Notes under the pieces: model-generated | Seen by the model: the letters and a program-made list of their open reading frames with translations, nothing else | The model's database searches: none | Told to the model about the DNA's origin: nothing | Assembly: GCA_032433595.1 (NCBI GenBank) | Contig: JASWJB010000054.1 | Location: 62,001-126,000, forward strand | DNA length: 64,000 bases | From: Conoideocrella luteorostrata | Lineage: Eukaryota > Ascomycota > Sordariomycetes > Hypocreales > Clavicipitaceae | Reading direction: 5' to 3' | Shown: positions 47,793-64,000 of the stretch, one piece after another | How the letters are laid out: every line of letters begins with the position of its first letter | How positions within the stretch are numbered: the stretch's first letter is position 1 | Translations under genes and position numbers: made by a program

Positions 47793-48539
47793 TTATTCCT
47801 CTATAAAAGTAACTTGTTGGTCTAGACTCTCCCGCGGCGTGCGCAAGTTGTTCACTTTGTGATCCTCCATCGGCCACCCAATAGCAATGCCGCAAAGCAA
47901 ATGCTGATTCTCGTCTATGCCAAACTCACGCTTGAGCACATGCGAATACCCTGTCACGCTAACTAGCAGGCAGGTTCCAAGTCCTTTCTCCGCCAAAGCT
48001 AATATGAACGTTTGCAGAAACATACCCACTGTCATTACGTCCACAGGCGCCAGCGTTTCATCTATACTGACAACGGCGCAGACTGGTGCTCCAAAGAATT
48101 CGTAGTTGCGCATTCGTGCTTGTTCCAGACTTGTCTTATCTTCACGAGCAATGTTGTATCCGTCTTTGCCATAAAGAAAACTGCCGAGCTCGCTACGGAA
48201 GCGATGAAAGTGCTTTGGTAGAGGTGGAATAGAAGGGCCGTACTTGAGTGCTTCTGCGTGAAGAGAGCCAACAATACGATCTCTTGCGTTGCTCGATGCT
48301 ATGCGGACTCGCCATGGCTGGATGTTGGAGTTGGAAGGCGCACGCTGAGCCAGCTGCAAGCTCATCTGAAGCAAAGGCCGAGGCACCGCATCGGATTTGA
48401 AAAATCTCACACTACGTCGAAGATGGACATAACTTTCGAACGAGTCTCTTCGGGTATGTTCGCGCTGGTCTGTAACTTGTGTACCGCGAACTAACCTAGT
48501 CGTTGGATGTTGGACATCTGGGTGGCCGACACCGTTCAT
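47793..48539 (-). CDS. Nitroreductase family protein (FMN-dependent NAD(P)H oxidoreductase)
   Basis: From ATG 48539 (context TTTGCCATG) the protein has 248 residues; an in-frame ATG at 48704 would add 55 residues with no domain content. FMN-binding landmarks are the N-terminal RRSVRFF, APSNSNIQPWRV, the dimer helix VGMFLQTFILALAEKGLGTCLL and the C-terminal LLCGIAIGWPMEDHKVNNLRTPRES. The family reduces nitroaromatics, quinones or enones by hydride transfer. Its divergent neighbour (49254) resembles hydroxylaminobenzene mutase, which acts on the product of nitrobenzene reduction, so nitroarene-to-hydroxylamine reduction is a reasonable inference. Confidence 0.88.
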   Translation of the reverse strand: MNGVGHPDVQHPTTRLVRGTQVTDQREHTRRDSFESYVHLRRSVRFFKSDAVPRPLLQMSLQLAQRAPSNSNIQPWRVRIASSNARDRIVGSLHAEALKYGPSIPPLPKHFHRFRSELGSFLYGKDGYNIAREDKTSLEQARMRNYEFFGAPVCAVVSIDETLAPVDVMTVGMFLQTFILALAEKGLGTCLLVSVTGYSHVLKREFGIDENQHLLCGIAIGWPMEDHKVNNLRTPRESLDQQVTFIEE

Positions 48540-49253
48540 GGCAAAGTTTTCTTTTGTAATTGGTTGGCTGATGTACGTTGTTGAACCTGATCTGTGGTCT
48601 GACGGCCCTAGTCGTTCAGGTATGAGAAAATTAGAAGTAAATTGTGAAGATTTTGTTATCCTATGATAAACCACTTCGATAGGAATGATGATGTTCGATG
48701 ACATTTTGGGAAGCACCAGCGTATTATATAAGTAAAGAGAGGCGGGGAAAGCCCGCACGACTGAATGAAGGACGTGCTATCATAGCTCATTTGAACTTCG
48801 AAGTCGACGTGCTCATTTGATTCACGGGGTTTCGGAGTTGCTGAAGAGCAACAAATCTTCTGCCAAACGATGCAATTCATCCGCGTCGGAGCTTTTGTTA
48901 GGGATGTGTACGGGGAAGTTTATCTGTCTCACTTTTATTCTGGCTAACTGCCGCAATTAATCCATCAATCAGCGAGCCGCCTCTGCCGGCGCCGTCGGCA
49001 GAGTGGGGCTTTGGTCGGGGCTTAACTCGCCCGCTGCCCGACACCTAAAGCTTCATCTGATTACATCAACAAGTTCTATGTGGAGAAATCGGGCGGAATA
49101 TGAAGCCGAACGGCGTTTCCAAGCACAGATAATTCCGACAAAAGATAAAAGGGATTAGACACTCAACATATAAGTCGAGCCCATATAATAAAACTTCATC
49201 AAGGAGGTACAAAATAATCATTCCAATCCAACCGTCGCAGGCATTTGCTCAAC
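48540..49253. promoter_or_regulatory. Shared divergent promoter region of nitroreductase and mutase-like genes
   Basis: 0.7 kb between two outward-facing starts with no other gene. No specific site was identified; co-regulation is inferred from the arrangement. Confidence 0.45.
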
Positions 49254-49928
49254 ATGTACACAAACTCTCCAACAGCCGGCGCAGTCGGACTCTTCTCAGG
49301 TTCCACTGCAACTGGTCGCCGCAGCAAGCTCCCGCTCTCCCTCCTTCGCCACGGCAGCGGCCTGGTGGCTTTTGGGCTACTTTTTGGATTTGTTGTGCCG
49401 CTGACGCCGTATCCACGTCTCGGACTGACAGCACATATTCAGTTTTGCATGGAGGGCACGATGGTGATAGTGGCTGGTTTGGTGCTGCAGAGCAACCCCT
49501 TTGCAGACAGCAGAGCTTCTGACCTCAAAAGTGAGACCGATAGACCGAGTGCAGAGGAGAATATGCAGCTGGCAGATCGGATGGGCTGGCTCAACAGACG
49601 GATTATTTATTGGGGTTTGGTGAGCATCTGGGTCACACTTTTATCGGAAGCTGGAAACGCTTGGTGGGGGACACGCAACCTACTCAGTATTGCTCACGAG
49701 GCGGCAGGGCTACATGGGAGGACGTCTGCCGCGTGGATGGAAACTGCCGTGTCTATTGCTCACAAGCCCGTGCTCATACTGGCTGCTGTTGTAAGTTCGT
49801 CCAAGTTGATTCAAGCTTTCATGAAGTCAATATCGAGACCAAATCAGGTCCTATGTTTTTATAAATGCCATGGGCTAATCTTCTGTTTACTTGAGTAGTG
49901 GCCGATTATACTGCACTCTCTGTTTTAG
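49254..49928 (+). CDS. Hydroxylaminobenzene mutase-like integral membrane protein
   Basis: Exons 49254-49790 and 49899-49928 (108-bp intron, GTAAGT donor) give 188 residues. Without splicing the frame runs to 49898. Four hydrophobic helices are visible. The segment LLFGFVVPLTPYPRLGLTAH resembles the conserved NPRxGLxAHxxG signature I know from HabA/HabB mutases, and WVTLLSEAGNAWWGTRNLLSI resembles their third helix. These enzymes rearrange hydroxylaminobenzene to 2-aminophenol. The neighbour is a nitroreductase in divergent orientation, which fits the same pathway. The assignment rests on remembered motif similarity, so it is moderate. Confidence 0.65.
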
Positions 49929-51465: not shown

Positions 51466-52473
51466 ATGTCCACCAGTATTCGTGATAATCCGAAACTGGA
51501 TACAGATCAGTTGCGAACCGACCCGAAATCGAGACGACGAATCCAGAATAGAAATGCACAGCGAAACACACGTAAGTCTCCATGATACATGTCCTTCTCA
51601 GGGTTATCTTGAGGGTCTCAATTGACTTCATGAGGTGCAGGCTTGAGAAGAGCTGTGGAAAAGCAAAAGGCGTCTGCAGCTCAAGCCCAGCAGACGAACT
51701 GCCGTTGCTGCTGTCCACATCAGATCTCTGCAGTAGAAAGCGAAGACGTTTCGGCGTCGCTAGTACCGAAAGCTGGCTTGAACGCTCAAGAAACAGTCCT
51801 GCCGACTCCAAAAACAGTGAAGTCGCCGCACGAACCGCAGACAATGGCGATGAACGTGATGGGTGATCCCGGCTTTTTCGTGGAGATGTTTGGTTCGCCG
51901 ACGGCCAATCTGCGCCATGGCTTCTCTAGAAGTCCAAGTGACTACCTGAGTCTCAATGTGGCTTTAGAGTCTTCTGATGAGGACGTCTCGCCGACCTTAC
52001 CCGATTCTCACCCAAGAACTTTTGAAGAAACTCGACGATCCTCCGAGGCGAGTGCGAACCAAGATGTAAACGCCAATTCATCTTCCAACGACGAGTGGAG
52101 TCTGTCGAACGAATACCTCCCTGCGGACTCAATTAATGGAGCACCTAACCCCCGCGACCAGTCCAAAAAACCAGGATTCACTCAGAGAAAGACGCCTCTG
52201 CATGCGTCCGCATTGTCGGGAAACTACACTATTCTCCAGATGCTGCTTCGAAGGGGAGCCAAGGTCAACGCGACGGATGACACTGGTCGTACTGCTTTGC
52301 ACTATGGCGTTGAAATGGGACATGCTGACGTTGTCAGAGTCTTGTTAGAACATAAAGCAGACGCTGGGATTGTGGACAATCAAGGGCTCAGTGCGATGCA
52401 TTTAGCCGTTGTGAATAACCAAGAGACGGTTGTAGTGCTTTTACTCGAACTCGGCGTTAGCCCTGATGTTTAA
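51466..52473 (+). CDS. bANK-type transcription factor (bZIP basic region plus ankyrin repeats)
   Basis: Exons 51466-51571 and 51641-52473 (69-bp intron) give 312 residues. The intron lies inside the basic region, which after splicing reads RRRIQNRNAQRNTRLRRAVE, a bZIP-type DNA-contact helix with no leucine zipper after it. A low-complexity middle follows, then about three ankyrin repeats at the C-terminus (TPLHASALSGNYTILQMLL, TALHYGVEMGHADVVRVLL, SAMHLAVVNNQETVVVLL). This architecture is that of TOXE and Aps2, pathway-specific activators of the HC-toxin and apicidin clusters. It lies 0.9 kb upstream of the first UstYa-type gene and is the obvious candidate regulator of that cluster. Confidence 0.88.
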
Positions 52474-53132
52474 GAGTTCGTATGAGGCGTCTCGTTGCAA
52501 CCATTTAGCATACATGCAGTACAGAACGTCGCAGACCGCTCATGAGACGACTGGAGTGATCCGTGACACCAGAGTGGTGATGAGAAGTGTTTCTCGTTTT
52601 CGCTGATATCTATCTGCCGGTTAGGTCCCGTTGTGTGACCGTACTTAGCCCTAAACCATCCGCTTCTCTCCGCCGTGCTTTTCCTTTTCGTTCGCAAGTA
52701 TAATTTCGTCACTCCCCACAGTCACTAACCGGCTTATTGTATCATTGGTCAGCACAGCCAATCTCAGCAAAGGATCTCTGCGAAGGGAAGACCAAATTGA
52801 AACAAAGTTATTTGGCCGAGCTATAGGAATCGATATACCTAACATTGTGAATAATGAATAAATTCTTTTTTCTTCTATTTATAACCGTGCGAACTACGTG
52901 ATACGGAGTGAAGTTGAAAAAAAAAACACAAACAGTCCCATCCACCTTCCCAACCATTACCGTGGAGTGCTGGCAACGGAGCCTCTCCGTACCCCCGTAT
53001 AGCAGCCTTGAAAATGTCTCGTGCGGCATTTTTCTTTCAACGAAGCCGTAGGGTTACTTATTATCGTGTATTTTTTGCCAGGTACGATGAAACATAATCG
53101 CACGTTGCCACCGGTATCGCCCCACAGTCTTG

Positions 53133-53183
53133 TGATGACATTGCTGACAAGCCTTGATGACATTGCTGACAAGCCTTGATGAC
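53133..53183. repeat. 22-bp tandem repeat in a promoter
   Basis: Two perfect copies of a 22-bp unit (53133-53154 and 53155-53176) plus seven bases of a third. Each unit carries one GCTGACA. 22 bp is about two helical turns. Confidence 0.95.
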
Positions 53184-53213
53184 CCTCTGCTGTCAGCAGC
53201 TTCAACGCTGACG
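53143..53213. promoter_or_regulatory. Group of TGTCAGC/GCTGACA elements upstream of the 53370 gene
   Basis: GCTGACA at 53143-53149 and 53165-53171, palindromic GCTGTCAGC at 53189-53197 and GCTGACG at 53207-53213, about 157-227 bp before the start codon. The same word recurs before the other UstYa-type genes. Function is inferred from position. Confidence 0.6.
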
Positions 53214-53369
53214 TTGCACACGAGTGCGGCCAATAGAGAGTCAACATAGCATAATAGCCCTATCAGGATCTATTCCCAACAATAGTGACGCTTTTAGGCT
53301 TGAAAGTAAATTTACCATCGTTTTATACTTTCGGTTACAGACTTATTTCACTGCCGTGCTTTTACTACA

Positions 53370-53993
53370 ATGCGTCATTGCTACGCTATCTCTGGAAGTC
53401 ACGTAGATGAAACACCACTAGACGGAGAAATCTCCGAAACATCACAAAGAAAATGTCTTGGTCAACCATGGTTAGCCAAGCTGACTCATATTGCCATATG
53501 GATTGCTTTATTTTTCGCCGCTTCTCTCATCTTATCAACATGGCATTCATGGTATTCGTTTGATCCAGCAACCAAATCACAGTGCGGTAGCTCTCCATCT
53601 GAAGCTAGAGACGCTGGCTGTCACTTTGATATCATGTCTTCCACATGGTCTCGCTCCGAATGCTTCGACCGGGAACTCATGGACGAATTTTTGTCCATAA
53701 AGAATTGGACCTGGTGGCTGGATGCAAACGGTACTCAAGGAATTGCATTGCCAAAGGTCGCTTTGGGAGAGCACAGAACTCTGTTCGTGACATGGGAGTA
53801 TCACCTATTTCACTGCATATACATGTGGAAGAAAATGCATCGCGCGTTATTAAAGAATGCATCACTAGACTCTTACATCCTAGATCTAGAGCATACTTCA
53901 CACTGTGGGCGGATGCTCCTCGATCACAAGTCGCAGTTGCATGAGAGGAATACAGTTATAGTTACCAAGTATCCGAAGTGTATCACACATTGA
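53370..53993 (+). CDS. UstYa-like membrane protein, divergent subfamily (two HxxHC motifs)
   Basis: Single exon, 207 residues. A cytoplasmic N-terminus of about 35 residues and one membrane helix (IAIWIALFFAASLILST) precede the luminal part, which opens with the pattern CGSSPSEARDAGCHFDIM ... WSRSECFD. Two HxxHC motifs, YHLFHCIYMW and HTSHCGRML, match the presumed copper-binding motif of UstYa/DUF3328 oxidases, but the spacing and the Cys-rich start define a separate fungal subfamily of unknown function. UstYa proteins catalyse oxidative cyclisation or hydroxylation of peptides in the secretory pathway. First gene after the regulator; its promoter has the GCTGACA group. Confidence 0.8.
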   Translation: MRHCYAISGSHVDETPLDGEISETSQRKCLGQPWLAKLTHIAIWIALFFAASLILSTWHSWYSFDPATKSQCGSSPSEARDAGCHFDIMSSTWSRSECFDRELMDEFLSIKNWTWWLDANGTQGIALPKVALGEHRTLFVTWEYHLFHCIYMWKKMHRALLKNASLDSYILDLEHTSHCGRMLLDHKSQLHERNTVIVTKYPKCITH

Positions 53994-54742
53994 TCAAAAC
54001 GCAGTCTACCAAAACTTTTCAAGGAATTGTTGTACGGATATTCTCGAGGGCTAGGATATGTAGCACACATTAATTCGAATGCTCCGTAGCAACATAAATT
54101 GGAATCGAAGAATTGCATACTTTGTAGCCCAACACCTTACGTACCTGATGACATCATTAATGACAGGTAACTACCGCATAGTTCTTCAAGGGTACTACAC
54201 CAAACCAGTAATTATACGAATCTTCTAATATACTAGATAACATAGATGTGGTGCTTTCCAGCGCTTGACGGATAATTGAATGAATGGTCCAACATTTTTT
54301 CAATTGTTAATCAGAAGTATACAATTATAAATCTCTTTACAAGCATGGAGGGCAGTTGAGCCGCTCTCGATAAGAGCTAACTCATGGGAACACAAATTGA
54401 TAGATCCTTCCGGCTACTCCATAAGGGAATAATCTCATATGGGTACAGAACTACTATGTTCAAATTCAGGGTAACTCTCCTCATAGTTCGTATGCGAGAG
54501 CCGGCATACATTATGAATGGGTAAACATAACGTGCACATATACGTCTAGAGTAATTGGGCGCACTTATTTTGTCCAACATTGGGCAATCAAATATTTATT
54601 TAGACGAAATACTAAGGAGTGTAATTTGGATCTCGTCATTGTAAGAGTTTAGATGGACTGCAACAAATAGCAAAAGTTGAACCAGTCCTCTCGTCTTGCC
54701 CTTAGGATGCATAGTACTCCGCGTTGCGGAATTCCATGTCTC
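53994..54742. other. Intergenic, no gene seen
   Basis: AT-rich convergent spacer. No GCTGACA element and no supported ORF. Confidence 0.5.
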
Positions 54743-54985
54743 TTAGATTGCATCCGTACTTTCAGTGTCTCTCTTGATGATCGACCAGCCTTTATAGAGA
54801 GCTTCCGAGATTCCGTCAACAGTCGCACCATCCGGCTCCGCAAGATGATCATGTGCTCCGTGTGCTAGACATGTAGTTAGGATTAAAGATGTAAGAAATT
54901 TTGGTATGTCTATGAACCACTCACGAGTAGGAGCGGCAATTGCAAAAGCGGCGAAAAAGCCGATGGAAATGATGGAGAATTTCAT
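54743..54985 (-). CDS. Small secreted peptide with one Lys-Arg site; candidate RiPP precursor
   Basis: Exons 54925-54985 and 54743-54864 are joined across a 60-bp intron (GTGAGT donor, CTAAC branch site, CTAG acceptor) and give 60 residues. Signal peptide MKFSIISIGFFAAFAIAA, then PTPHGAHDHLAEPDG, a segment with aromatic residues (ALYKGWSII), Lys-Arg, and an eight-residue tail DTESTDAI. Fungal dikaritin precursors (UstA type) are also short secreted proteins cut by a Kex2-like protease at Lys-Arg next to a core containing aromatic residues, but usually with many repeats; here there is only one site. It sits amid UstYa genes and shares its upstream region, with GCTGACA elements, with the UstYa gene at 55269. 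Precursor role is inference; a small effector is the main alternative. Confidence 0.65.
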   Translation of the reverse strand: MKFSIISIGFFAAFAIAAPTREWFIDIPKFLTSLILTTCLAHGAHDHLAEPDGATVDGISEALYKGWSIIKRDTESTDAI

Positions 54986-55137
54986 AATGGCTGGATGTTA
55001 AACTCTGTGGCTTATAATGTGTAAGTTTGATAAGATGTTTGCTTGCTGGAAGATTCAGAGTGAAAAGAAGGAGTATTAAGAGTATTTTATGAACAAAGCC
55101 TTATGAAGCATAGTATCGATGGCGGCAGCGAAAGAAG

Positions 55138-55176
55138 ACTGACGGTGACACTGATGCTGACACATATGCGGTCAGC
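55138..55176. promoter_or_regulatory. TGTCAGC/GCTGACA elements between the peptide gene and a UstYa gene
   Basis: ACTGACG 55138-55144, GCTGACA 55156-55162 and GGTCAGC 55170-55176, in the only region between two divergently transcribed genes (about 155-190 bp before the peptide start and 95-130 bp before the UstYa start). Confidence 0.55.
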
Positions 55177-55268
55177 ACATATATCAACTCTGTCTGGTCG
55201 GTCTACGCACGGATGTGGGCCTCGAGTACCAAGTTTTTTGTGTAATATGCTGCCTAGTTGTTTTCAAC

Positions 55269-56365
55269 ATGGTAAATCCTACAATGTCTCATACAATTCA
55301 ACCCACAGCCATTCCTATTGCCCCGCCACTGAACATGGAGAAGAACAGGAAAGACCATAGAGCGTCCTTTTATTCGGAAGATGACCAAAATGGAGCTGAA
55401 AGCGACGAACTGCTAGCCAAATATGACTCGCCTACAACCTTCGCTCCTCATCGCAGAGCACTAATACACTTACTGACCTTATACGTCGCCAATATCGTAT
55501 CTCTCATGGTAATCATCGTGATGTGGAGTACGAGGTCAACGGGGTTGCGTGATCCAACTCTCAATATCTATTGTTAGTCAACACTCCGACTCCACTCCGA
55601 TTTCGGTTTTATTAACGCTATTGAACAGCCCCAGCAAGTGAAGCAGTCGAATATATCGGTGCTCTGCATTTCCGCGCCGCCTTGTTCAATTATACCGAGT
55701 ACATGGGTTATCCGACCGCGGATGGAAGAACAGACGAGCTATGGAGCAATCTCTATAATTGTAAGGCGTTTTGTACATGTAATGCCGATTATGTCACTCA
55801 CAATTTGTCCACAGTTGGTATTTCCAAGATCACGAAAGAGCAGGCAGCGAAGTTGCACACTCCAACTCTTGCCATCCCAGACACTGAGGACTATTTGATC
55901 GAGCTCGATGTATGGCATGAGCTTCACTGTCTCAACGACCTCCGGAAAGTGCTGTATCCGGAAGTATATGGCGGCCTTCAGGAAGTGACGTGGCCAAATG
56001 GCACCATCAACCGCGAGACTGATGCCTTTCGCCATTGGGATCATTGTATTGACTCTCTTAGACAGACAATTATGTGTCATGCTGACGTAGCGCCGATCCC
56101 TTTTCACGTTAACGTTCCTGTCAACAAAGGGATATTCCCGCGGTTAGCCACCACTCATACATGCCGCAATTTCGAGCGGATACAGCAGTGGGCGCGAGAT
56201 CACTGGGCTGGAGAGTGGGATTTCAAACTGAATCCGGACAAGGCCGCGGAGATCATTGCTGCTAGTGGATTTGACAATGCTCCAGAAGAAGATATAGAGT
56301 TTCTTTGGCGGGATTTTCCTGAGAACAAATTCTTCAAACACTGGCGTGAGAATTTTGTAAACTAG
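55269..56365 (+). CDS. UstYa-family (DUF3328) oxidase
   Basis: Exons 55269-55572, 55629-55760 and 55815-56365 give 328 residues. The second intron (54 bp) is in frame and stop-free but splicing restores the family LYNFGISK block. Layout: N-terminal cytoplasmic tail of about 70 residues, one membrane helix (LLTLYVANIVSLMVIIVMW), SPASEAVEYI, then HxxHC motif 1 (WHELHCLNDLR) and motif 2 (HWDHCIDSLRQTIMCHAD), and the C-terminal THTCRNFERIQQW. This is a full-length, apparently active member. Such proteins act in the secretory pathway on RiPP or NRPS peptides. Later Met codons at 55284 and 55335 are possible starts. Confidence 0.88.
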
Positions 56366-56774
56366 TTATTCTACCTTTTTCCTGGAAACATGTTAGTAAC
56401 AATTAAGGTATTGAAATTGGCTGTATGCCGTAGATACGGGGCTGAACTAAGCAAATTTGATTCCAACGTAAGGGCCGCACGACCAAAATGTAATTTTCAG
56501 CATCATTCAAATGCTCTTGCGCAGCAAATAATATATCATGTGCAGCGAAAAAATTATATTATTCTTTTAGTATTACTGTCGACACGATTGCTAATCCACA
56601 AGCATCTGAGCGGGTCAAAAAAGAGAAAACAAAAACTATATAACCCTGCTATCGCGATACACTGCATCAAGGCCTCCTAATAGTTTTGCTAGATGTACGG
56701 GATACTGTGGCATGTCTATTGTTTTGTTGGAAATTCGGGACCCTCGAGGTCGTCTTGCCTGGAAATAGAGTATT
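56366..56774. other. Intergenic, no gene seen
   Basis: Convergent AT-rich spacer between two UstYa genes. Confidence 0.5.
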
Positions 56775-57675
56775 CTATGCTATCTCATCTCCATGCACCC
56801 CCACGTCAGCATGAGTCTTGAACCAACCATTTACTGCTTTGAACTCCTTTGACATTCTGTGTACATTAGCGTCGGATGGAGCTTTCAAATTGACGAAGTT
56901 GACGACATCCACAGCGTTCTTGTCATGCCAAGCTTTAATAGCATCAAAGTCTCGACATTTGTGCTCTACGCTGAAGTCGGGAAAAGGATGCTCAAACGCA
57001 TCAGTCCATATGTGGGTATAGACGTCGGTGCTGGCTTGGCACAATATCCCTTGCAGAAGATACTCGATACAGTGGCTCAGGTGTAGTTTGTGCATGTCCG
57101 TGGTCTGATTTAGTCCACCGGGGTAGGTTGACCCATAGTAGTGTTCAAAATATGCATCGCGGCGCAAGCTGTCCAGACAGTGGATCTGATGAAAGACTTC
57201 TAGCCGCCCTGCATAGACGTCAGAGCCAGTTCCAAACTTCTCGGGAAATTTAACAGCATCCTGAGGGTCCTTTCCGATAGCTTCGACCTCATCGCGGGTC
57301 AATGGGATAAGTCGAAGATCACCTAGCCGGTCCCATGCTAGATCGACTGCATGACTGGGAGCCTGGCGATATATACTTGGCGATGAACCGAGAAGTAGAT
57401 TTGTATTCCCAAGTTTATTAGATAGTTTTATGTCAATCGATGTGAGTAGTGGTGCTAAGAAAGGTTGTTAGCATTACCCTGTTAAAGCCAGCTTCGAGTT
57501 TCAGCCTACATGCAGCGGAGACCTGTCGAAGAGCCCCATTTCTCGTCCAAAGTTGCCCCCTATTCAAATATACAGAAACAGTAAGACATATTAGGGACGC
57601 AAATAGTATTAGGGCATTCCAAAAAGTCCACGTTTTCTTAGATGCAACAGACTGGTCCAATAATGTAGTGGGCAT
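56775..57675 (-). CDS. UstYa-family (DUF3328) oxidase
   Basis: Exons 57510-57675 and 56775-57454 (55-bp intron) give 281 residues from ATG 57675 (MPTTLLDQ). One membrane helix (FWNALILFASLICLTVSVYL) is followed by RQVSAASPLL after splicing, AVDLAWDRLGDLRLIPLT, HxxHC motif 1 (FHQIHCLDSLRR), motif 2 (HLSHCIEYLLQGILCQAS) and the EHKCRDFDAIKAWHD end. Both presumed metal-binding motifs are intact. Two TGTCAGC elements lie about 180 bp upstream. It is convergent with the gene at 55269. Confidence 0.88.
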
Positions 57676-58346
57676 GACACTAATTCCGAAGGGACTTTGG
57701 AGTCGGATTGGCTGGCTAGATTTGATAGAGTGCTTAATCTGTGAGGATAGCACATTGAACAGGTATCTAAAAACTGAATGCGTTTATGTTTTGGTAGCAC
57801 TCAGTGAGTGTGGCTGTGTAGAAGCTACTCCAAATTTCGGCAAAGATGGCCATGTCAGCAACGTGTCAGCATTCATGCAGGCGATGGGGAGCACATGGAG
57901 TCGATGCAAATCAGCAGTCATACTATCTTTTGGACCCGCATGCATCGACATTCTGTTCGGGAGCCCATTTTCAATCACTTCTATCACTTAGGACACGACG
58001 AATAAGTTACTCATTCAGCCTTCTCCGCCAAATCAACGGTATGTCGAAATTCTTCACTATTTGACTTTATTTGACTAGCTGATGATACTAAAGAAAAGAC
58101 AGCTTTAAGTTTTCTGGCTAATCCTGGAAACAGATTTAGGGATTGTAAGTTTATGAATTGGAAATAGAACACTGCAGCATTCAAAGCCGGAATAGTCCGG
58201 TATCAGCTTCGTATGAAATCGTAGCCTACTGTTAAATTATGGTATTAGAGGTATAATATAAACATTTGTTCGGATACCAAAGTTTCACGATGCACGTCCA
58301 CCTAAATCGGAGCTATGTCATATTATCGGGTGCTCTTTCAGCATAA
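57676..58346. other. Intergenic; promoter of the 57675 gene
   Basis: No gene supported; the open frame across 57449-57991 (+) is antisense to the UstYa exon. Contains the TGTCAGC pair at 57853-57870. Confidence 0.55.
57853..57870. promoter_or_regulatory. Paired TGTCAGC elements, 11-bp spacing
   Basis: TGTCAGC at 57853-57859 and 57864-57870, same orientation, one helical turn apart, about 180-195 bp before the UstYa start at 57675. Confidence 0.6.
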
Positions 58347-59098
58347 CTACAGAATTTGTTTTTGGGACAACCTGGATACAGTATCTCCAGGCTCAACGTT
58401 TGACACAGTAAGAGGCTTTGTGGAAGAATCTTCTACTATCGATCTTATCCTCCCAGAATCTCCGCAATAGTGGATTGAACCCGCTCCATCAATAATTGGC
58501 TTTCCGGTCTTGCTGCGCCTGCTCGACATTTCGACCGTGTCGTCAGCCGCACAAACTACGGCCTTATTATATTATCAGTTAGCGTCCTGATTTGCTGGAT
58601 GAATATATTAGAAAAACACACCTGAGAAAGATAATCAATGCAGTGCATTAGGTGATCTGGATCATGAATCTGCTGAGCACTGTGATTGCCGATGATACTT
58701 CGTAAAGCGTCGAGACAGTGGAGTTGATGATACATCGAGATCCCATACCGCTCATAGTGCTCACCATGCTGCGACAAGACGTGCATATAAGGACTGACTT
58801 TTGTGAGATACAAGGCTTCATCATACAGGGAAAATTCGAATCCAAAATCCGGCCTCGAGTTGTGTGGAGCATTGATGACGCGAGCTTGAGACCTCATGGT
58901 ACTATGTTGACGGCCAACAGCAAGAGACTTGGAAGTTTTTCGGATGGAATTAATTTGGCAGTCGTTATACATCCGACCTCCTAGGAAGTTGTAAAGCCAC
59001 AGTCCGCTTAGAAGAACTGGCGGGACGCAGACCAGCCCAAAGACTAAGCGTCGGCGGCGCCAGTTCGACTGTCGCCCGATATTGTCCGAGTCCATCAT
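58347..59098 (-). CDS. UstYa-family (DUF3328) oxidase, short form
   Basis: Exons 58622-59098 and 58347-58562 (59-bp intron, CTAAC branch site) give 230 residues. N-terminal MMDSDNIGRQ with basic WRRRRL, one helix (VFGLVCVPPVLLSGLWLYNFL), then a short luminal part with HxxHC motif 1 (YHQLHCLDALR) and, across the intron, motif 2 (HLMHCIDYLSQ then AVVCAADDTVE). The family C-terminal HxCRDW/F block is replaced by an IHYCGDSGRIRS sequence. Shares an upstream region containing GCTGACT/GCTGACA with the gene at 59548. Confidence 0.82.
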
Positions 59099-59317
59099 TC
59101 TGTTTTATATAACAGGTATAATAATGATTCAAGTACAAGTGTATAGTCTTCACCTGGTGAGCAAACTGAGGGCCAGCGAGTCGGCGTCTCAGTCGCGGGG
59201 GCGGATCGTTGTAAGGGAGAACGGCAGGGCCTGATTATGCCGCCTATGGGTACGTTGGATACGGCTGTCGTACGCATTCTATGTACCGGGGTGGAGGCTG
59301 TTCAAAGAATGCAGCTT

Positions 59318-59353
59318 GCTGACTGTCATCACAAGTGTTGTGGGTTGCTGACA
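59318..59353. promoter_or_regulatory. GCTGACT/GCTGACA pair between two divergent UstYa genes
   Basis: GCTGACT 59318-59324 and GCTGACA 59347-59353, 29 bp apart, in the 450-bp divergent region between starts at 59098 and 59548. Confidence 0.5.
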
Positions 59354-59547
59354 TCTCTCGCTGAGTATGTGGGGGCGACGGATGACGGTACTGAGCGTAT
59401 GACTCTACACAATTTTAGCTCACTCGGATCCGTTCAACCAAATTATTGGCTGGACACATATTGCTGGCTCGTCCCTCTCACAATCCCAAAGTATTACTGT
59501 AAGGCTGCCAGCTTATTCCTGATATTTATCGCCTCACAAGTACTAGA

Positions 59548-60266
59548 ATGTCGTTGGAATCAGGCAAATATTCTTCACTACGGGGGGATGACAGCGATGA
59601 TGGTATTGTTGGTATTCGACCGAGAGCATCATGGTTCAAAATTCCTGCCCTGAGCATCATACTGGGATGCTTATGCTTGCTTCAGTCTTCCGTTCTGTTC
59701 TGGATGATAACACAACAAAATGTGTCCAGCCACGTAGTATTTAATGACGAGGCCCCATTTGGAACTGCTGTAACAGAAGAGGAAGTTGAGCATGCATGGA
59801 GCGTTTACAGTCTGCGTGAGTAGGCCTCTCGTGCACTTCGACGAAAAAATATGTATTCAATGGTATGATAGGGCTGACAGAGTAAACTCCGACAGCAAAT
59901 GCAGGGTTTGTGAGCATTCATAAACCTGAGGATCTGGGACTGAAGCCAAATCAAAATGTCGTATCAGGCGTTGATAATGTGTACATGATCTCGGCAATGC
60001 ACCAGCTACATTGTTTGAAGCAACTGCATACGACATTAGTGAGAGGCGACAGCGCATTCAACGCCACGACAGAGCGTAAGCATATACTCCACTGTTTGAA
60101 TTACCTAAGGCAAGGTATTTTATGCTCGGCTGATGGTACATTGGAGGGGCCGGATGATCACCCTGAACTGACTCACAGCCCGCTCAGTGGATGGGGAGTT
60201 CTTCATCAGTGCCGGTCGTGGAAGGATTTGATGGAGTTCAGGGATAGCCATTCCATTTCTCGGTAG
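59548..60266 (+). CDS. UstYa-family (DUF3328) oxidase, short form
   Basis: Exons 59548-59815 and 59896-60266 (80-bp intron) give 212 residues. Short tail, one helix (IPALSIILGCLCLLQSSVLFWM), EEEVEHAWSVY, then after splicing PNAGFVSIHKPEDLGL, HxxHC motif 1 (MHQLHCLKQLH), motif 2 (HILHCLNYLRQGILCSAD) and LHQCRSWKDLMEF. Both motifs are intact. The size and spacing match compact UstYa members. Confidence 0.87.
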
Positions 60267-60432
60267 TGTCGTGATACATAAACAATGATGTACTTCACGG
60301 TAACCCGTGCGACTCGTTGATTCTAGTGAACAAACGGAGTTGCCAAACTTAAGTGATAATGAATGCCACATGTCAACCATCCTTCGATGCCTTTAGATTT
60401 GTGTATGTTTGAGCTTCTCGATCCATATTGAG

Positions 60433-61164
60433 TCACACATGTACTGCATCTTCTCCCTTCTCCAACTTCTCGGTGAGTTCGCGTAGCATTTCGCGCTCTT
60501 CTTCCTGATACTTGGCGAATTTGCTGCATCCCATTCCTTCAATTAAAGCAGAAGTTTCTTCAGCGAGCCGCCTTGCCTCGTCCTCCTTGGCCCCTCCCTG
60601 CTTCCACATACTTGCAATGATGGTCCTTGTCGTCCCCAAAGCCTGTGGGGAATCCGGGCCACACTTCTCGTGTGTCTGCATCACTGGTAAGACCTCGCGT
60701 GCCGCGGCTTCCGCAGAGGCGAAGTTGCCGCTACGTAGACTCAGACCCGACATCATGTTAAGCCAAGAGTATTGAATCCTCCCTTCGGTAGTGGCAATCA
60801 ACTTGGATATGGTCTCCTCCTCGTCCTTAGGACGATCAAGGAACTGCTGGATAGTGGCGATGCCAAGCAGCAGGTTGATCCAAGTGCGCGAGTCGGCAAC
60901 GTGAAGTTGTTGGGGGGCCACTGCGACCTCACGGGCTGAGAGAGTGGATTGGAGTTCGGAGAGCAGGTAGAGCAGCCGGTCATGGACGCAAAGTGAGCCG
61001 TCAAGCTTCATCCTCTCGATATCCTGGGGCTGGTAACAAGTAAGAAAGTTGCGTGCGACTGTAAACTCCATATCTTTCCAGAATGGTGTGTCAGGAACAT
61101 CGAAATCCCACTCAAACTTGGGCTCCTGCGAAGTAGCTGGCGGTTTCACGTCTGCCGTGGACAT
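60433..61164 (-). CDS. Hypothetical protein with TPR-like helices
   Basis: Single exon, 243 residues from ATG 61164 (MSTADVKPP); the frame is open further upstream without another good ATG. I do not recognise a named family. The sequence is largely helical, and the stretch around LNMMSGLSLRSGNFASAEAAAREVLPV to ALGTTRTIIASMW looks like kinesin-light-chain-type tetratricopeptide repeats. No signal peptide or membrane helix. The C-terminus is highly charged (EEEREMLRELTEKLEKGED). It lies inside the UstYa array but, unlike its neighbours, has no GCTGACA element upstream, so it may be a bystander. Confidence 0.65.
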   Translation of the reverse strand: MSTADVKPPATSQEPKFEWDFDVPDTPFWKDMEFTVARNFLTCYQPQDIERMKLDGSLCVHDRLLYLLSELQSTLSAREVAVAPQQLHVADSRTWINLLLGIATIQQFLDRPKDEEETISKLIATTEGRIQYSWLNMMSGLSLRSGNFASAEAAAREVLPVMQTHEKCGPDSPQALGTTRTIIASMWKQGGAKEDEARRLAEETSALIEGMGCSKFAKYQEEEREMLRELTEKLEKGEDAVHV

Positions 61165-62221
61165 TGTGGCGGAACAATGGAGTCTTACTTTTTCAAGACC
61201 AAACACCCGTAGTAATCTCGGATCGAACGGCACACGCGTATATGCAAATTGATGGTTGGATTGCAACGCACCTCAATTGCGGAGAACGGTGCACAGTTAT
61301 GCATCACGGCTGCGGTCAGAAGTCACGTGCGAGTCGTTGTGGTCATGCACCACCGTTGGTCGAGGACTGTCGTTGGTCATTCACAAAACACCGCGTTGAA
61401 TTACGTGGAATTCAATTAAATCCCTCAGACACTCGGAAATGCTGATATTCCTTACGAGCCAGCAGAAGCCTCGTTTCTAATCATAACAGAAGAGCTAAAA
61501 TTTAGTTGCAAGTCGTGGCGGTTAGCATCAGTGCACAATAGAAGACAAGGTCAAGCCACCTAACCTCTCGTCATCGGATGAATAGAAATACTAAGCAACT
61601 ATTAGGTTCAATGATTTTATGAAAGTCTGATGGAAATCTTGGATCGACGGAATCCAGGACGAAGTGCAGGTATGCATAGCCGTCAAATTCTTTTTCAAAT
61701 CAAAGAGAACTTCCTACTGCTAGCAACATGTCAGTTGTAGCTGTTCCTGGTGGTGCAAATCAAAGATGGCTTCCCATTGTAGCAGGGTGTGACGGTCTAT
61801 TGCTACTCCCAATGACAATGTCGTCAGTCGTCAAGGTCTGGCATTCGCATGATAACATAGCTCTCGGCTGCAAACGATTTTCTCCTCGGCAGCTATTAGT
61901 AGCTTCCCATCGAGGATTAGTGGACATAAAGTTACCAGACCATGTATTGTATGACATACGCACAACGTACGTGAAATCACGACGCATTCAGAAAGAGAGG
62001 AAAACATAGGCCATAAATTTTGGTCACTATTTCGCTGAAGAATGTCACAAGAAGTATGGGCCCATTTAAAGGTCATAATCACGCGTGACATGTGGGACGT
62101 CACAAGGCATCCTAAGGATATCACGAACGCTCTGGCGGTTGGAACTAATGAATTGCACGAAGATCATAAGATATCTCTTGTTCTCGCTTAACCTTTACAT
62201 TGACCTCAACGCTTTCATCGT
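61165..62221. other. Intergenic, no gene seen
   Basis: 1.06 kb with only short ORFs and no UstYa remnants recognised. Confidence 0.5.
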
Positions 62222-63179
62222 TCAATAGAAGACCCTTCCACCCCACCACATATCCGTCATCCTGATAGCCTGAACCGCATTGTCCTGAACCCAGCTTGTC
62301 ATAGCATCAAAGTCACGGCACTTGTGCTTCGTCGAGAAGTCCAGTGCGCTACCGGGTAACGATTGTCCCTGAACTCTCGTGAGGATTTGCAATATCGTGC
62401 TCAAATCACCCCAGCACATTGCTGCTTCTCGTAAACGATTTAGACACAAGTCTGCTCTATGCATAATGTTCTCATTGGACCCCTTGAAGGCTGGATTGCT
62501 AGAATAGGTGACATTATATCTACGGCGATTAAGATGCTGTCTCAGGAGGTTGACGCAAGCCAGCTCAACATATACTTCAGGGATCGCAAGAAGGTGTGAT
62601 TCGTCCCTGGGAACGTGTAAGAAACCTTCATCTAGCGTGATTTTTAGATCCGAAAGCCGTGACTTTGGTATAGCTATTGGGCTCTCTGCGAGATGATTAG
62701 TCTTGGTTTGGATACGAGCTTGGGCAACTTCGGCACCATTATAATAAACCTCTAGAGCCCAACTCACCCGGCAGGAAAGCTTGCCAATTCTTATCAGCTT
62801 CTTCAATGGGATCACCAAAATAATCCGACTTTGTAAATAATTCTAACCAAGGAAACATCTTCCACTCATAGTCGAGACCCTGCGTGATCGGGGTCCACGT
62901 CGTCCCGTGCGAACCACAGATGGTGTCATTTAGACTTGGATGCACCGCGCGATAAAAATTAAATGCTGCCAACGAAAAGAAAATAGCGACAAAAGTCCAC
63001 GCTAAACCTGATCTCCAGGTCAACAAAACCTGCAATTGAGTCATCAGGCGGACACAGTCGACAGCTAGCGGCACTACGACGCAAAGTTTGAACTGATCCG
63101 CTGGTCTTTTACAAGGCTCCTGGTATTTGATGTTTTCGCGCTTTTGGACTCTGAAGAACTTAGGGTAGCTCAGTTGCAT
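62222..63179 (-). CDS. UstYa-family (DUF3328) protein with both HxxHC motifs lost
   Basis: Exons 62768-63179 and 62222-62685 (82-bp intron, CTAAT branch site) give 291 residues. One helix (LAWTFVAIFFSLAAFNFY), EADKNWQAFLPESPIAIP across the splice, FLHVPRDESHLLAIPEV and the C-terminal KHKCRDFDAMTSWVQD are typical of the family. The first metal-binding motif, normally HELHC, reads VELAC, and the second, normally HVDHC, reads RADLC, although surrounding residues (VNLLRQ, LNRLREAAMCWGD) are well conserved. It may be a non-catalytic partner or a decaying paralogue. The frame is otherwise intact. The N-terminal 50 residues before the helix are unusually long; an inner Met is possible. Confidence 0.85.
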
Positions 63180-63214
63180 CGTTTGACTTGATCACGGTAG
63201 TCTAGGTCATGCTG

Positions 63215-63271
63215 TGTCAGCGTCCGTCAGCCCTTGTCAGCCCTTGTCAGCAACTTGTCAGCGACGTCAGC
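63215..63271. promoter_or_regulatory. Array of six TGTCAGC/CGTCAGC elements at about 10-bp spacing
   Basis: Direct copies start at 63215, 63225, 63235, 63245, 63256 and 63265, four TGTCAGC and two CGTCAGC, steps of 10, 10, 10, 11 and 9 bp. It lies in the 274-bp divergent promoter between UstYa genes starting at 63179 and 63454. Same-face spacing suggests cooperative binding by one regulator. Confidence 0.75.
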
Positions 63272-63453
63272 AGAGCAAGGCTGTTAGCCGAACAGGCAAT
63301 TGTCACGGATTGTTAGCGGATTCTGTGTAGCTGTTCAGCTCTGCATCCGTCCAAAGACGTGTCAAGTCAATTTGTGAGCTAGAAGTCATTGCAAATTTGA
63401 CATTTGAGTTCATTTACCACTCGTACATATTCTGTTCTTTACTCTCCGCTGAA

Positions 63454-64000
63454 ATGCTAGGAGCCTTGAAAGGGTGCCAAAGATACTTGCCACTTCCTTC
63501 CGCCAAAAACTTCGAGGATGAGGAACGAATCGCCCTCGAGAAGACACTCTCGGACAGGGAGAGTTGCTCGACTAAGCAAAGCGATGCAGAAACTTGGGAA
63601 AGCTTGGAGTCACCTGATCGACCAAAAAGTATACTAGAAAGATGCCAGATGTGGCTGTTGTTTGTCTCTGTGACGGCGTGCCTTGCTTCTTACATTGCGG
63701 TATTCACAACCCAAAATCAGTTGGAGAAATCGTGTCTGAGATTTATGGAACCTTGGCGTATGCTTGCTCTCATTTGCAAAGTTGGTATCGGATCTAATCA
63801 TTCTGAACAGACCCCTTTCGTCCGTTTGTTACTTACGAAACACGTCGGTTTGATTGGGAAGGGTGTCCGGAAGACTTTTGTGGAGGTGTCCAGCAGGAAA
63901 GATCGAAGAGGTGGGAAGATCTTTGGAACTGTGAGTGCTCTTACCGGAACAGTCGAGCGACTTTGCATTGATTCTAAATCGGATTATTAGACGGTTACCC
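63454..64000 (+). CDS. UstYa-family (DUF3328) protein, 5' part, cut by the window edge
   Basis: Exons 63454-63757, 63811-63930 and 63991 onward; introns of 53 and 60 bp. The N-terminal tail carries MLGALKGCQRYLPL and an acidic stretch, then one helix (WLLFVSVTACLASYIAVF). SCLRFMEPW follows and, after splicing, HPFRPFVTYETRRF, CPEDFCGGVQQERSKRWEDLW and N-Y-G-Y at the edge. The HxxHC region lies beyond the window. The GGVQ-type insert with two Cys is a variant seen in some UstYa members. Divergent from the gene at 63179 with the six-copy element array between them. Confidence 0.83.

Follow-up and report, generated by a model that had tools for sequence, protein, structure and literature searches.

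A probable fungal RiPP cluster with a candidate single-core precursor, seven UstYa-type genes and a shared promoter motif

Dikaritins are fungal ribosomally synthesised and post-translationally modified peptides (RiPPs) that include ustiloxin, phomopsin and asperipin-2a; their definition, attributed to Ding 2015 in PMC12048977, lists a signal peptide, repeated cores, multiple DUF3328 (UstYa) genes, tyrosinase, methyltransferase, and transporter or peptidase. Fungal RiPP surveys, as described in PMC7329392 and PMC9632046, search for repeated cores, and single-core precursors are therefore easily missed. For the cyclochlorotine enzyme CctR, it is reported that the HxxHC residues form a two-copper site, that alanine mutants are inactive and that the protein forms a dimer; an accessory protein supplying electrons or Cu(I) is hypothesised in that work (PMC12435403). 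Here we describe a 64,000-nucleotide stretch of DNA (the window; bases 62001-126000 of the 172,497-base contig C54 in a 46.4 Mb genome), fungal as judged from its gene content, in which seven UstYa-type genes (G1 and G3 to G8) lie around a gene for a small secreted peptide (PEP), with a bANK-type regulator gene adjoining. With a probability of roughly three in four, we read this locus as a fungal RiPP cluster working like those of the dikaritins, except that it would have a single core, lacks a tyrosinase in its vicinity and probably includes a UstYa partner without catalytic activity. The novelty lies in finding together a candidate single-core precursor, an HxxHC partner family absent from Pfam, a conserved metal-less UstYa protein and a cluster-wide promoter motif. 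The genes, modelled with GT-AG introns, are the following (window coordinates; other contigs, and C54 where named, have their own):

51466-52473, plus strand (exons 51466-51571 and 51641-52473): bANK-type regulator, 312 residues; Ank_2, 109.7 bits.
53370-53993, plus strand: G1, single exon; hydrophobic helix at residues 33-61 (predicted structure), HLFHC (145) and HTSHC (175), no Pfam domain.
54743-54985, minus strand (exons 54925-54985 and 54743-54864): PEP, 60 residues, proposed single-core precursor; spliced model with one 60-nt intron.
54776-54796, minus strand: proposed core YKGWSII, followed by a Kex2-type Lys-Arg (54770-54775); deduced from the repeat precursors, the N-terminal end of the core being uncertain.
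55269-56365, plus strand: G3, UstYa, 328 residues; HELHC and HWDHC; Pfam 184.7 bits.
56775-57675, minus strand (exons 57510-57675 and 56775-57454): G4, UstYa, 281 residues; HQIHC and HLSHC; 182.4 bits.
58347-59098, minus strand: G5, UstYa, 230 residues; HQLHC and HLMHC; 53.9 bits.
59548-60266, plus strand: G6, UstYa, 212 residues; HQLHC and HILHC; 85.3 bits.
62222-63179, minus strand: G7, UstYa, 302 residues; both HxxHC absent; 97.2 bits.
63454-64520, plus strand (the window ends at 64000): G8, UstYa, 317 residues; HQTHC and HTNHC; 85.8 bits.

All nine frames (bANK, G1, PEP and G3 to G8) are open in the spliced models. An earlier note on this DNA had placed seven UstYa-type genes within 10.6 kb and called such proteins oxidative cyclases. 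Seven intact genes are indeed present, spanning 53370-64520, but the span is 11.15 kb because G8 runs 520 bases beyond the window edge, and six of them (G3 to G8, 53.9 to 184.7 bits) exceed the Pfam cut-off of 25 bits for UstYa/DUF3328 (PF11807). G1 gives no Pfam UstYa match and is UstYa-type by its motifs and layout. Two HxxHC motifs are found in six of the seven genes (G1, G3, G4, G5, G6 and G8), so that seven oxidative cyclases is an overcount, G1 not being a Pfam UstYa protein and G7 lacking the copper motifs; a heavily oxidised product remains a prediction. Given at least 57 exon-level UstYa matches in the whole genome and the common promoter motif, the clustering of seven such genes in 11 kb exceeds chance.

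The secreted Lys-Arg peptide that the earlier note had pointed out amid the UstYa genes is borne out as an intact spliced model. PEP runs from MKFS to AAPT, is then interrupted by the intron and continues for 40 residues, in which a single Lys-Arg is followed by the eight-residue tail DTESTDAI; its hydrophobic N-terminus, MKFSIISIGFFAAFAIAA, is a putative signal peptide by direct reading. It has no Pfam domain match. Its link with the UstYa genes is strengthened by a divergent, motif-bearing promoter shared with G3 and by a gene structure matching that of the repeat precursors found elsewhere in this genome, among them the following:

C8:231604-231935: repeat precursor (DESYLPNKR), with a TGTCAGC pair upstream and UstYa matches at C8:212294-230590.
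C532:9325-9825, C612:5556-6020 and C363:4077-4192: further repeat loci near UstYa and G1-type genes.

Four other UstYa loci carry signal-peptide repeat precursors, with the units NNQAGWGKR (C532), EPDRHQSYLKER (C612), DESYLPNKR (C8) and VEDYFIGADKR (C54:25.3 kb), and a fifth, C363, has AEYPVTWPNK repeats of unresolved start and frame; all five repeat loci sit at most about 2.5 kb from a UstYa match. The stretches of C76, C341 and C300 showed no precursor repeat; the one repeat in C76 is of low complexity and has no long frame. PEP and the precursors of C8 (where other splices are possible) and C612 each have a phase-1 intron behind coding base 61, and PEP therefore reads as a single-core member of this group. 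At C54:25.8 kb the intron follows 66 coding bases, and the C532 gene reads through without an intron. When the 200,037 fetched bases were scanned for a signal-like start that reaches a splice site after 58-66 bases and is followed further on by KR or RR, criteria chosen after examples had been seen, three genes were returned, namely PEP and the C8 and C54 precursors; the C612 precursor, whose repeats end in ER, was not. Two short strings of PEP recur in precursors elsewhere, LAEPD in that of C612 and VDG, ahead of the core, in that of C532, matches that alone could be due to chance.

The genome as a whole is rich in clusters of UstYa genes and repeat precursors. One of them, a second RiPP-type locus on the same contig (C54:20001-30000, left of the window), contains UstYa, a tyrosinase, what looks by eye like an MFS protein, and a precursor in which VEDYFIGADK occurs eight times, seven times with Arg behind it; the YFIG of this unit fits the YXIX core motif given for ustiloxin and phomopsin in PMC7329392.

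The genes of the cluster are further tied together by a promoter element. Its occurrences (none assigned to a strand) are:

53130-53215: GCTGACA/TGTCAGC group upstream of G1, sites at 53143, 53165 and 53191 (k-mer count).
55144-55176: PEP/G3 divergent promoter, GCTGACA at 55156 and variants at 55144 and 55170 (k-mer count).
57853-57870: TGTCAGC..TGTCAGC pair upstream of G4 (pair search, k-mer count).
59318-59353: G5/G6 divergent promoter, GCTGACA at 59347 and a variant at 59318 (k-mer count).
63215-63271: G7/G8 divergent promoter, four TGTCAGC and two CGTCAGC (k-mer count).

When all k-mers in these five promoter regions were counted against the remainder of the fetched contig, the top 7-mer was GCTGACA, seen 11 times versus 0.34 expected and present in five of five regions, and the top 8-mer was TGCTGACA (8 versus 0.06 expected). 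When five contig regions of similar length were picked at random 400 times, no set reached 11 and in 398 sets no 7-mer was common to all five; the random regions were drawn from the contig generally, not from promoters only, and the motif had been spotted by eye before the test. Pairs of the form TGTCAGC-N0-20-TGTCAGC number 55 genome-wide versus 16 for the reversed control, with five inside the cluster; one further pair, at C8:231150, separates a UstYa match from the repeat precursor of C8, and another, at C363:771, lies 3' of a UstYa match.

A plausible binder of this element is encoded next to the cluster. The TOXE-like bANK regulator proposed in the earlier note is confirmed in its ankyrin repeats by Pfam (Ank_2, with three Ank stretches), and a putative basic region can be read directly (RRRIQNRNAQR near the N-terminus, without a zipper; bZIP_Maf at 13.9 bits, below the cut-off of 22). 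Among the genome-wide matches listed (127 of 584 candidates scored), only bANK itself covers the basic region. ToxE and Apf2 are described as bANK proteins with the promoter boxes ATCTCNCGNA and TGACGTGA (PMC4109984), and the bANK regulators described in PMC4109984 and PMC6389888 govern nonribosomal peptide synthetase (NRPS) clusters. The present protein resembles ToxE and Apf2 in its putative N-terminal basic region without a zipper, its ankyrin repeats and its place beside biosynthetic genes among whose promoters a box recurs (PMC4109984), but the box here is TGCTGACA and its binder is putative; a TGAC core is common to TGCTGACA and the Apf2 box. No TGTCAGC-type site was found within 1.4 kb upstream of the bANK gene itself.

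G7 retains the UstYa family domain without either copper motif. Six homologues were found at E up to 0.001 among 360 candidates (Cladobotryum, Diaporthe, Podospora, Ophiocordyceps and two others), with 41-67% identity; both HxxHC are absent in all six, whereas the cysteines and the residues near them do not vary. Elsewhere in this genome, the best match reaches 38% identity, along only part of the protein. As the loss is common to six homologues with invariant residues, it looks old and maintained. In view of the two-copper site, the dimer and the postulated accessory protein of CctR, this conserved metal-less protein is best read as a partner, and G7 is thus probably a non-catalytic UstYa partner.

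G1 belongs to a family without a Pfam domain. A protein search returned 11 homologues, including ones from Truncatella and Aspergillus, and two HxxHC motifs stand at matching places in all 11. In the predicted structure (mean predicted local distance difference test score, pLDDT, 83.7) the motifs lie on the neighbouring helices 142-161 and 173-184. Profile comparison with UstYa by hhalign gave a probability of 4.5%, which is not significant, the aligned columns being the two HxxHC motifs. The genome holds eight matches to the G1 family, G1 included; seven are at most 2 kb from a UstYa match (C54, C76, C300, C612, C532, C341 and C363), and the eighth is on C1, a contig without a UstYa match. 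Six of the seven UstYa-adjacent copies keep both HxxHC. The remaining one, C612:10307-10786, has lost both, a parallel to the loss seen in G7 within the UstYa family. A tentative and rather doubtful extension would be that G7 founds a metal-less UstYa class of obligate partners (half of a heterodimer, or delivering electrons or copper as postulated for CctR), that with G1 there is a second family of HxxHC oxidases, absent from Pfam and accompanying UstYa genes, and that the two would be parts of a multi-subunit complex for the oxidation of a single-core peptide.

Compared with the described systems, the locus shares with ustiloxin, phomopsin and asperipin-2a a secreted Kex2-type precursor adjoining several DUF3328/UstYa genes and a Tyr in the core region. 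The N-terminal signal peptide (by direct reading) and multiple DUF3328 genes (six over the cut-off) of the dikaritin definition are present, while repeated core or recognition motifs and a tyrosinase in the cluster are not; because of these two absences we do not file it as a dikaritin cluster. Seven UstYa-type genes compare with 2, 5 and 1 for ustiloxin, phomopsin and asperipin-2a, respectively, and with an average of 1.7 per precursor, according to PMC7329392. As with CctR, the proteins are membrane-anchored, carry an HxxHC pair and would be expected to bind two coppers; unlike CctR, which acts on an NRPS product, they have no NRPS nearby, and G7 lacks the copper motifs altogether (PMC12435403). 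A further parallel is offered by the lichen RiPP clusters of Pasinato and Singh 2025, which have DUF3328, in which no repeated precursor was observed and for which a single core is considered by the authors (PMC12048977); unlike those described there, the present cluster offers a concrete single-core candidate with support from gene structure and promoter.

In the mechanism we propose for a RiPP cluster with PEP as its precursor, PEP would enter the secretory pathway and a single core ending in YKGWSII would be freed by Kex2 at the Lys-Arg, perhaps with the help of further peptidases. Bound to the membrane and facing the lumen, G3-G6 and G8, and probably also G1, would oxidise or crosslink the core, Tyr and Trp being the likely modified residues, through a two-copper site on paired HxxHC helices. 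G7, with the family domain and no copper motif, would act as a non-catalytic partner, either as dimer scaffold or as substrate holder. The gene set may be switched on through the TGCTGACA sites by a trans-acting factor, plausibly the neighbouring bANK. Several observations weigh against this account. The core of PEP occurs once, unlike in classical repeat precursors, and no PEP homologue was found among 5.8 billion proteins with a search that requires three common five-residue words. No tyrosinase was found in the window or rightward on the contig, as the earlier note had remarked up to the right edge. TGTCAGC is not general at UstYa loci (none at C76 and C341, one each at C532, C612 and C300), and it also occurs twice in C54:20001-30000, four times in 8 kb of C363 and eight times in 30 kb of C8. 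A motif pair is present at the C8 locus, in whose 30 kb stretch no bANK-like basic region was found; bANK therefore need not be the binder, and another one is possible.

An unlikely explanation is that the UstYa enzymes tailor an NRPS or polyketide product made elsewhere, with PEP being incidental, e.g., an effector or a signal. UstYa proteins also occur in NRPS pathways such as that of cyclochlorotine (PMC12435403), the bANK regulators of the papers cited above control NRPS clusters, and C54 itself carries a condensation domain (C54:52774-53898) and a ketosynthase (C54:58993-59794). However, both are leftward of the cluster by about 54-60 kb, and of the 30 motif sites in the contig stretch not one falls within the 10 kb surrounding them; rightward to the contig end no condensation (78 of 107 candidates scored) or ketosynthase match was found, in line with the earlier statement that no polyketide synthase (PKS) or NRPS lies alongside; moreover, PEP shares its motif-bearing promoter with G3 and has the gene structure of the repeat precursors. 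The two domains, about 5 kb apart on opposite strands, form a separate PKS/NRPS-type locus.

Decay of the cluster, in which a multi-core precursor has shrunk to one core and the oxidases are being lost, G7 first, would account for the tail of PEP after KR, which could begin a next spacer, and for the missing metal motifs of G7, and would fit the many cores retained by the other precursors of the genome; the intact state of all nine frames, and a G7 loss common to six homologues with many other residues invariant, speak against it and make it decidedly improbable. Finally, the true substrate might be another, unrecognised precursor, in the cluster or unlinked, with PEP as a helper, given that precursors are not easily recognised and that short genes without annotation may escape notice. 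Since the window contains no precursor-type tandem repeat and the scan for an early intron and KR/RR, which finds only such genes, gave no second candidate at C54:52001-166000, we consider this very improbable.

As to the boundaries, the earlier note had held the cluster to be probably incomplete at the right edge and had proposed to look further right for a repeat-type precursor and a tyrosinase. Of the cluster genes, just the last part of G8 falls outside the window, and next come a GH32 enzyme, a scytalone-dehydratase-type protein and a Zn2Cys6-type regulator (the last by eye), so that the cluster does not look clearly incomplete; rightward to the contig end there is no tyrosinase match, the contig's only ones being at C54:21864-22545, about 91 kb to the left, and repeat precursors turned up at other UstYa loci. 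Right of the window, open reading frames of at least 120 residues were read by eye. Inside the cluster, a non-UstYa gene (60433-61164, minus strand) has no Pfam match over the cut-off (TPR_10, E 0.12) and no motif within 2 kb upstream. Other genes of the region include a nitroreductase-family gene (47793-48776, minus strand, 90.6 bits) with, beside it, a gene at 49218-49898 (plus strand, no Pfam match) that may encode a protein resembling hydroxylaminobenzene mutase and, at 73982-75610 on the scale of the window, one for a C2H2-type zinc-finger and ankyrin protein (by eye), the ankyrin part of which is a long tandem repeat.

For the study of fungal RiPPs, single-core precursors could be looked for by combining three features, namely an intron soon after the part encoding the signal peptide, a KR site and a common promoter box. 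A metal-less UstYa protein next to a member of an HxxHC family absent from Pfam would, in turn, make UstYa dimers, electron supply and division of labour testable within one small cluster.

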